In this document: piece after piece, positions 45,705-47,103 of the stretch | Numbering within the stretch: the stretch's first letter is position 1 | Layout: each line of letters begins with the position of its first letter | Source of the DNA: Candidatus Villigracilaceae bacterium | Lineage (GTDB): Bacteria; Chloroflexota; Anaerolineae; Anaerolineales; Villigracilaceae | Assembly (NCBI GenBank): GCA_026645935.1 | Contig: JAPKMP010000007.1 | Span: forward strand, 124,001-188,000 | Reading direction: 5' to 3' | DNA: 64,000 nucleotides | The notes under the pieces: generated by a model | What the model saw: the letters and a program-made list of their open reading frames with translations, nothing else | Told to the model about the DNA's origin: nothing | The model's database searches: none | Made by a program: the position numbers and the translations under genes

Positions 45705-45732
45705 TTGACAAATAGACAAACTTCTATATAAT
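45705..45732 (+). promoter_or_regulatory. arsR promoter with embedded operator
   Basis: TTGACA (45705-45710), 16-nt spacer, TATAAT (45727-45732), 6 nt before ATG 45739. The 17-nt sequence TAGACAAACTTCTATAT (45713-45729) fills the spacer. It holds the inverted repeat ATAGA-N6-TCTAT and recurs exactly at 46101-46117. ArsR bound here would block RNA polymerase. The message is probably leaderless. Confidence 0.8.
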
Positions 45733-45738
45733 AACCAT

Positions 45739-46050
45739 ATGAAAGTCGACCCGGTCCTCTTTGCCAAAGCCATCGCAGACGAAACCCGTCAAAGAATCAT
45801 GAGCGAGTGTTGCTGTTGTGAACTCTCGGTCAGTGGGATCGTAGAAAAGATCGGCTATTCCCAGCCGACCATCTCGCATCACCTCGCCATCCTGCGCGAT
45901 GCAGGCTTGGTTAATGTGCGCGAAGAAGGCAAGCAAACGTTCTACACCCTCAACCAGGAGCGCATCGCATTCTGCTGCGGGCAGATCATGGTCAAGTTCG
46001 CGCCTGAATCCGTTGCAACCGAAAATCTATTAAAGACCATCAAGGCATAA
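45739..46050 (+). CDS. ArsR/SmtB family metal-responsive repressor
   Basis: A 103-residue winged-helix repressor. IADETRQRIMSE, IGYSQPTISHHLAILRDAGLVNVREEGKQTFYTLN is the ArsR-type HTH and wing. At the helix where classical ArsR carries ELCVCDL, this one has four cysteines in a row (C24-C27, MSECCCCELS), and two more near the C-terminus (C79-C80, AFCCG). Both are candidate As(III)/metalloid ligands. It heads an operon with a Cys-rich peptide and ArsM, which supports arsenic sensing. Confidence 0.92.
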   Translation: MKVDPVLFAKAIADETRQRIMSECCCCELSVSGIVEKIGYSQPTISHHLAILRDAGLVNVREEGKQTFYTLNQERIAFCCGQIMVKFAPESVATENLLKTIKA

Positions 46051-46100
46051 CCGGGATACGTCCACGGCCGGGACGATCCCGTTTTTTGCGGAAAATAAGA

Positions 46101-46117
46101 TAGACAAACTTCTATAT
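46101..46117 (+). promoter_or_regulatory. Second ArsR-type operator
   Basis: An exact 17-nt copy of the arsR promoter operator (ATAGA-N6-TCTAT core), 16 nt before ATG of the Cys-rich peptide. No convincing -35 precedes it. It may be a second promoter/operator or a roadblock site for ArsR within the operon. Confidence 0.75.
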
Positions 46118-46132
46118 GAAAGGAGAAGCCTC

Positions 46133-46207
46133 ATGAACGAATTACCGGTCGTCCAGTGTTGCGATGGTGAATGTGAAGGCGGCAGCTGCGGTTGCGGCTG
46201 TTGCTAA
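46133..46207 (+). CDS. 24-residue cysteine-rich peptide (putative metalloid-binding)
   Basis: An ATG with a strong AAAGGAG site 8 nt upstream opens a frame of 24 codons ending in TAA. The peptide starts MNELPVVQCCDGECEGG and ends SCGCGCC, with 8 Cys, several Gly and 3 Glu. It resembles a tiny metallothionein. It lies between arsR and arsM, behind its own copy of the ArsR operator, and is followed by a perfect 18-bp hairpin. I know of no named family for it. Sequestering As(III) or handing it to ArsM is inference. Confidence 0.75.
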   Translation: MNELPVVQCCDGECEGGSCGCGCC

Positions 46208-46210
46208 TCG

Positions 46211-46250
46211 AAGTTCTCTCTGCCTGCCAGGAGGCAGGCAGAGAGAACTT
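46211..46250 (+). other. Perfect 18-bp hairpin between the Cys-rich peptide and arsM
   Basis: AAGTTCTCTCTGCCTGCC and its exact complement flank an AGGA loop. It starts 4 nt after the peptide stop. No T-run follows, so it is not a standard terminator; it may stabilise the short upstream message, act as a partial attenuator, or be a mobile-type palindrome. Confidence 0.85.
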
Positions 46251-46308
46251 GTTGACGAAAAATTTTTACTGGAATTCATAGGCAACTTGTTATCAAAAAG
46301 GAGAAACA

Positions 46309-47103
46309 ATGACAGAATCACCCACCCCCATCCATGATACCGTCCGCGAACATTATGCCGAGCGGATTAAGAGCAGCGCCTCGTGCTGCGGCGATCGTTG
46401 CTGCTCCACCGACAGCAGACTCTACCCCGTAGATTTGCTTGCCACTGTCCCAGCCGATGTATCAAACACCAGCTACGGCTGCGGCGATCCGATCACTCTG
46501 GCTTCCCTCCAACCCGGCGAAACCGTCCTTGACCTTGGCTCCGGCGCAGGACTTGACTGTCTATTGGCTGCCCAGAAAGTTGGCGAGACAGGACGCGTGA
46601 TCGGCGTAGACATGACTCCCGAGATGATCGATCGTGCCCGGGCAAACGCGAAGCGCGTCAACGCAACGAACGTAGAATTTCGCCAGGGGTATCTCGAAAA
46701 TCTGCCCGTCGATAACAGCACGATTGACGTCATCATCTCGAACTGTGTCATCAACCTTTCGCCAGATAAAGAAAAGGTCTTTGCCGAAGCATTCCGCGCA
46801 TTGAAACCGGGCGGCAAACTTGCCGTCTCTGATATCGTCACCGACGGCGAACTACCCGAAGTGGTCAGAAAAAGCTTAGCCGCCTGGGCGGGCTGCGTGG
46901 CTGGCGCGGTCGAAGCCAAACAATACATTGCCATGATGGAAGAAGTCGGTTTCACGGATATTTCGATCAAGCCCGTCTTCTTCGATAAGGAAACCGTGGA
47001 CGATGCATTAAACGAAATGAAGTTGGATGCCGTGGAATATCCACGCGAAGCCGTTTACAAGGCGGTTTACAGCGCTAAGATCACCGCCTACAAACCGAAG
47101 TGA
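46309..47103 (+). CDS. arsM: Arsenite S-adenosylmethionine methyltransferase ArsM
   Basis: A 264-residue cytoplasmic enzyme that methylates As(III). The SAM site is VLDLGSGAGLDCLLAAQKVG (73-92). The three family cysteines are present: C58 (SYGCGDP), C146 (ISNCVINLSPDK) and C196 (AGCVAGA). An N-terminal Cys cluster (C26, C27, C31, C32) is also typical of arsM genes. AAAGGAG precedes ATG. It is the last gene of the ArsR operon and is followed by a terminator. Confidence 0.95.
   Translation: MTESPTPIHDTVREHYAERIKSSASCCGDRCCSTDSRLYPVDLLATVPADVSNTSYGCGDPITLASLQPGETVLDLGSGAGLDCLLAAQKVGETGRVIGVDMTPEMIDRARANAKRVNATNVEFRQGYLENLPVDNSTIDVIISNCVINLSPDKEKVFAEAFRALKPGGKLAVSDIVTDGELPEVVRKSLAAWAGCVAGAVEAKQYIAMMEEVGFTDISIKPVFFDKETVDDALNEMKLDAVEYPREAVYKAVYSAKITAYKPK

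Follow-up and report, generated by a model that had tools for sequence, protein, structure and literature searches.

Arsenic is countered in cells by efflux, reduction, oxidation and methylation. In Candidatus Villigracilaceae bacterium, an unlabelled cysteine-rich frame of only 24 residues lies between a gene for an ArsR repressor and one for the arsenite methyltransferase ArsM, and it raises two questions: is so short a frame a gene, and what would its product do there? The stretch of DNA analysed here, referred to as the window, is 64,000 nt long (GCA_026645935.1, contig JAPKMP010000007.1, positions 124,001 to 188,000). All coordinates below are those of the window, and all features lie on its forward (+) strand.

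The locus and its signals

The frame opens with an ATG at 46133 and closes with a TAA that ends at 46207 (46133..46207), encoding the peptide MNELPVVQCCDGECEGGSCGCGCC with seven Cys. A Shine-Dalgarno sequence, AAAGGAG (46119..46125), is located 7 nt ahead of the ATG, and the frame sits between arsR (45739..46050) and arsM (46309..47103). A preliminary description of the locus had reported the frame, the AAAGGAG signal, the arsR/arsM context and an operator copy in front of the peptide. All of these stand, the last as an exact ATAGA-N6-TCTAT match at 46100; its count of eight cysteines is to be corrected to seven.

The promoter of arsR, TTGACA-16-TATAAT (45705..45732; 12/12 matches in a consensus scan), carries within its spacer a putative operator, ATAGACAAACTTCTAT (ATAGA-N6-TCTAT, 45712..45727), and the same motif precedes arsR in many relatives. 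A second putative copy (46100..46115) lies ahead of the peptide gene. The 18-mer ATAGACAAACTTCTATAT is present without mismatch at 45712 and at 46100, and these are its only places in the 4.33-Mb genome at ≤3 mismatches. Since a backwards control pattern finds 3 places in the genome at the same threshold, the weight rests on two exact matches 388 bp apart and not on the count. In 100 shuffles of the window, the operator pattern occurred a mean of 0.02 times. A decayed third copy, ATAGGCAACTTGTTAT (46278..46293), precedes arsM; in G337, a near relative, ATAGA-N6-TCTAT is present there without mismatch. Judged from their sequence, these copies would function as operators. Between arsR and the second copy, a short terminator-like hairpin with six T residues, CGGGACGATCCCG-TTTTTT (46069..46087), is found, and similar T-rich ends occur in several relatives.

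ArsR itself is a 103-residue protein that scores 79.5 bits against NF033788 (cut-off 55) and matches PF01022. Its two cysteine clusters, Cys24-27 (SECCCCEL) and Cys79-80 (FCCGQ), are candidates for three-Cys As(III) sites, which vary in place among known ArsRs according to the accessible part of one report (PMC13236881). ArsRs of peptide-free relatives carry similar clusters, and these are therefore not specific to the peptide. A PDB sequence search with the window's ArsR matched ArsR/SmtB relatives; the CCCC cluster is in none of the three PDB alignments shown, and one of the relatives, SrnR, has a single Cys at the position of the second cluster.

The arsM product (264 residues) scores 317.8 bits against NF008823, for which the cut-off is 263, and its best solved relative is PDB 5evj (E 1.9e-41). 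Cys58, Cys146 and Cys196, which we take to be the three catalytic cysteines, lie in the segments YGCGDP, SNCVIN and AGCVAG, respectively.

Conservation and range of the peptide family

Relatives of the peptide were sought in the best 80 of 192 confirmed arsM-like loci. A sequence-blind first scan, which covered as much as 900 nt ahead of arsM and 78 of the 80 loci, accepted any short frame with at least four Cys, and a recurring MNELPV...CC peptide was already visible in it. A profile made from 14 of these peptides was then run in six frames against all 80 loci and located the family in 21. In 54 loci ArsM shares at least 67% identity with that of the window, and all 21 carriers belong to this group; the peptide is absent from the 26 others. 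It is not seen in the 33 remaining close loci either (L061 and L063 among them are without upstream sequence), from which it follows that arsR-arsM systems can do without it.

After further genomes were added, the family comprised 30 genes at distinct loci, the window included, which encode 29 different proteins. All 30 are very small and very rich in cysteine (23–29 residues, 6–8 Cys). Profile scores range from 19.0 to 50.0 bits over the 30 genes and from 19.0 to 39.9 bits over the ten genes outside the profile, as against a top score of 10.8 bits when 628 kb of loci were dinucleotide-shuffled ten times. L117, at 19.0 bits, was kept, as it has an ATG and seven Cys and lies after arsR. L049 was merged with L010, to which it is identical in the peptide region, and L133 (new) and L130 (with the same protein as the window) stand outside the counts. 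A hit of 19.1 bits in L114/L122 was dropped before counting: the match begins without an ATG, an arsR match is missing, and there are four Cys.

The frame is a real gene. Frames of 24 codons are common, and one might be expected to open by chance, yet the existence of a family, the codon phase of its substitutions and the shuffle control refute this account and leave it with practically no probability. An ATG start is present in 30/30 genes, and a pattern scan finds AAGGAG in 28/30. Insertions and deletions are of whole codons and the frame stays open; the stop directly follows a CC pair in 29/30, with a single C in L120. Among the 30 genes, which were gathered by protein similarity (a bias) and whose pairwise figures are non-independent, differences per site at codon positions 1, 2 and 3 are 0.26, 0.24 and 0.48, and uncorrected pS is 0.745 versus a pN of 0.235. 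Leu4, for example, is invariant by way of five different codons, and cysteine is encoded 135 times by TGC and 74 times by TGT. Thus, the two tests that the preliminary description had set for itself, conservation of the frame in related arsM operons and substitutions that respect codon phase, both came out in its favor, the first in 21 of 80 loci plus further genomes and the second in third positions that vary most and in pS > pN.

Divergence along the locus can be read from G337. Relative to the window, its peptide gene has a single substitution in 75 nt, synonymous and in a Cys codon, with 11 differences of 312 in arsR, 6 of 82 in the arsR-peptide spacer, 15 of 102 columns in the peptide-to-arsM stretch, and 89 of 795 in arsM.

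The family consensus consists of the start MNELPV, a Cys pattern of CC..C, then EGGxC, and then GCC. Five Cys columns are common to at least 29 of the 30 genes and a sixth to 25, and the number and spacing of cysteines drift across the family. The six most conserved cysteines may be grouped into two triads, CC..C and C..CC, gap placement being uncertain in so Cys-rich an alignment.

With regard to range, the profile search matched 27 of 152 genomes from the window's family and 26 of 400 from an order-level sample, where 25 matches fell within the window's family and one was the rejected hit described above. Together, the two samples yielded 32 different genomes of the window's family. The class sample (4/298) and the phylum sample (6/301) gave matches that are all from the window's genus, include its own genome and are partly the same genomes. 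The searches are leaky. For instance, a search of the source genome with a profile from alignment A1 did not recover the gene of the window itself, because the initial step drops so short a query, and with alignment A2 the carriers G038, G132 and G139 came out empty in phylum-level sampling and G290 in family-level sampling. As true cases are missed, the true range is at least as wide as that found; in these leaky searches the peptide is confined to one Anaerolineales family, that of the window.

Locus arrangements and linkage to ArsR

Several arrangements of the gene are known. The order arsR-peptide-arsM, with the peptide within about 300 nt of arsM, is the one seen in 20 of the 30 genes; two more (L011, L029) have other genes between peptide and arsM, three follow arsR with no arsM nearby, four come directly after arsM, and one is cut by a contig end. 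Of the 30 genes, 27 share a locus with an arsM. L118, which represents the same place as L011 but is longer, has flavodoxin-like and cytochrome-like genes between the peptide and arsM and an ArsP_1 permease after arsM; L119, at the same place as L029, has an ArsP_1 permease between the two.

Putative operators accompany most of these genes. A copy with ≤1 mismatch is found within 60 nt upstream of 25/30, and the five genes without one are the four that follow arsM and that of L056, which has an exact ATAGA-N6-TCTAT 69 nt upstream. Of 51 loci tested, with and without the peptide, 38 also have an exact copy no more than 80 nt ahead of the arsM match. The peptide gene thus looks like a cassette of operator, ribosome site, frame and hairpin placed between arsR and arsM, the latter with a putative operator of its own.

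Other sequences occupy the arsR-arsM slot in some loci. L044 and L055 contain other short frames, MRLATLFLLTRGNLFCRSCQCKKTNSRSSQ and MTHGILFLLTRGLSLCGICKCKTTRRTK..., that have FLLTRG and a C-x2-C-x-C-K end in common and may be another small peptide with Cys, preceded by the same putative operator. A short hydrophobic frame, MYAEILLIIGIPAILFGLARSTEK..., is found behind the operator in L019 and L027, and insertions of CATTGCGAG-type sequence are found in L015, L033, L036 and L037. In addition to its intact copy after arsR, L011 carries, from about 2853 onwards and before arsM, the sequence ...GECCEGGNCGCGFC, which is followed by a hairpin of the conserved type; it is a possible remnant of a second peptide copy, although its score of 10.7 bits is inside the chance range of the shuffles.

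The hairpin of the cassette is, in the window, a perfect 18-bp inverted repeat with the loop AGGA (46211..46250), located between the peptide gene and arsM. Across 20 aligned loci, chosen among those with the peptide after arsR, a single 11-pair consensus hairpin follows the stop codon. At least one double compensatory change is seen in 6 of its 11 pairs, and every pair is intact in all of the sequences or all but one; L032 lacks the conserved hairpin. Where the peptide is the last gene, L115 and L120 have hairpins like those of ordinary terminators and L116 has one without a T-run. In the window there is no T-run directly behind the hairpin, and an A/T tract follows some 13–20 nt later. As a candidate dispersed genomic repeat, the window's hairpin was rejected, with one genome site at ≤2 mismatches. 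These features suggest a 3′-end or stability role for the peptide message: most likely, the hairpin would define or stabilise the 3′ end of this message and so favor production of the peptide over that of the enzyme.

Whether the peptide belongs functionally to ArsM or to ArsR can be judged from its distribution. On a tree of 60 ArsR proteins, 29 of them with the peptide, its presence requires 7 changes, and on a tree of 56 ArsM proteins (25 with the peptide) it requires 13; the four rows by which the trees differ are all peptide carriers. Restricted to the same 56 loci, the figures are again 7 versus 13, compared with shuffled means of 18.5 (ArsR) and 18.7 (ArsM) and lowest values of 12 and 13 in 200 shuffles each. 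Peptide presence is clustered on both trees and more so on that of ArsR, which is built on 103 columns, has many open forks, and represents the gene physically nearer to the peptide. Left out of the trees were L118, L119 and L121 (second copies of L011, L029 and L058) and the distant L062 and L086. Furthermore, arsR-peptide pairs are present in G202, G260 and G290, in which a search at E ≤ 1e-30 found no ArsM match; the same search found ArsM in the other five of eight genomes. These three genomes are 95, 95 and 96% complete, which leaves a small chance of a missed ArsM gene. The peptide thus goes with ArsR rather than with ArsM.

This bears on two alternative roles. In the first, of which the preliminary description had raised the donor part, the peptide is a dedicated partner of ArsM that would pass As(III) on to the enzyme or provide thiols for methylation cycling. 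Its placement between arsR and arsM in 20/30 loci and directly after arsM in four fits such a partnership, but the closer tracking of ArsR, the three pairs for which no ArsM was matched, and the 33 of 54 close ArsM loci that show no peptide weaken the proposal and make it unlikely. In the second, the frame is a Cys-rich leader that controls arsM by attenuation, with the hairpin as the switch. The shortness of the frame, its run of Cys codons and the hairpin conserved ahead of arsM are what a leader would offer. A leader would, however, always be upstream of the gene it controls, and the peptide follows arsM in 4/30 loci and pairs with arsR in three genomes in which no arsM was found. Moreover, the non-Cys start MNELPV is kept through synonymous changes, and the hairpin begins after the stop codon with no T-run directly behind it. 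Attenuation is accordingly very unlikely.

Proposed function and relation to known systems

The reading that the evidence probably supports is that the gene encodes a micro-metallothionein-like peptide, induced through ArsR by As(III), in which two Cys triads buffer As(III). Binding of a thiophilic metalloid is plausible in view of the Cys content, the ArsR-type operator and the arsM neighbor. In such a scheme, As(III), and possibly Sb(III), would bind the cysteine clusters of ArsR, which would then leave its operators, and arsR, the peptide gene and arsM would be induced together. If each triad (CC..C and C..CC) offers an AsS3 site for one As(III), a single peptide might buffer at most about two As(III). 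Held in this way, the metalloid would be kept off cell proteins until it is methylated by ArsM, exported by an ArsP-type permease, or diluted.

As for the metal, it is ArsM and ArsR, and only these, that point to arsenic. Alternatively, the peptide might be a metallothionein that serves a different thiophilic ion (Cu, Zn, Cd or Sb), sensed by ArsR, and known ArsR/SmtB-controlled metallothioneins do handle Zn, Cd or Cu, as stated in the accessible part of a report on them (PMC8790569). Around the three arsM-less pairs, inspection by eye of the starts of translated frames recognised no further arsenic gene, so the ion could be another. On the other hand, 27/30 family genes have an arsM at their locus, and a gene for an ArsP_1 permease comes after that of the peptide in L119 and belongs to the same cluster in L118, although the NCBIfam names that these permeases match, far below cut-off, are Cu/Zn efflux and SaoE. 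Another ion is, on balance, improbable.

The combination of a constant N-terminal part with a Cys-rich C-terminal one would likewise suit the precursor of a RiPP (a modified peptide), a bacteriocin or a signal. Yet in the window arsR-peptide-arsM is flanked by genes for an M3 peptidase and a TetR regulator and by an epimerase-like gene, none of which is a maturase or exporter gene, and the neighbors around L115, L116 and L117 vary, as judged by eye. The chance that the peptide is such a precursor is slighter still than that of a leader.

The likeness of the peptide to metallothioneins would be one of working rather than of sequence: among 28 members scanned, of the 29 different proteins, none matched a metallothionein family of NCBIfam or Pfam at E ≤ 1. 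Matches of three members to Pfam Conotoxin_I2 (best E 0.052) were set aside as noise of Cys composition. Neither a PDB search nor a plasmid search (BLAST with the low-complexity filter on) returned a relative of the peptide. The copper metallothionein of Neurospora crassa, with about 25 residues and seven Cys, resembles it in length and Cys number but differs in Cys spacing, organism, control and presumably metal, and homology is not claimed. ArsD, another small Cys protein of ars operons, also holds As(III) by cysteines; it is folded, about 120 residues long and has its own Pfam family, to which neither the window's peptide nor the members scanned show a match.

The closest parallel in design is that of cyanobacterial SmtB-SmtA and AzuR-NmtA, in which, according to the accessible part of the report cited above, an ArsR/SmtB repressor controls a metallothionein (PMC8790569). 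Here, too, an ArsR-family repressor and a small Cys-rich protein come together with a putative operator motif, which the peptide gene shares with the arsR promoter (≤1 mismatch near 25/30 genes). SmtA and NmtA, however, respond to Zn, Cd or Cu, and the peptide shares no Pfam or NCBIfam family with them. They are also about twice as long. The SmtB/SmtA logic being already known, what would be new is a lineage-limited, ArsR-linked micro-thionein family. A bolder formulation, to which we give an even chance, is that of a new class of arsenic-dedicated "arsenothioneins", peptides of ~25 residues that bear two AsS3 triads and are too short for standard gene finders. Each would form with ArsR a self-contained module of sensor and sponge, inside or apart from arsenic methylation operons. 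Among the open-licence PMC papers surveyed, none deals with such a peptide, as far as their titles and the starts of their abstracts show.

If the micro-metallothionein reading is true, an ArsR-linked peptide sponge would add buffering to the known arsenic defences and could explain how a slow methyltransferase works while the cell is spared poisoning by free As(III). Because 24 residues are easy to synthesise, the claim is directly testable. The case would also illustrate that conserved metal-handling genes can escape gene calling when they are too short.

The host operons of the peptide are arsenite methyltransferase operons of the arsR-arsM kind (PRK11873). Described ars operons, such as arsR-orf1-acr3-arsM of Paraclostridium, name no such peptide in the accessible part of their report (PMC12124457). 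A second ArsM-like gene outside the window (L002, G000:C68:69304-69816) has an in-frame TGA at the third conserved ArsM cysteine and reads WTGUIAGA where ArsM has WAGCVAGA, which suggests a selenoprotein. ArsM selenoprotein families are present by name in NCBIfam, and ArsM matches with one TGA, like that of L002, are also found in G337 and G967.
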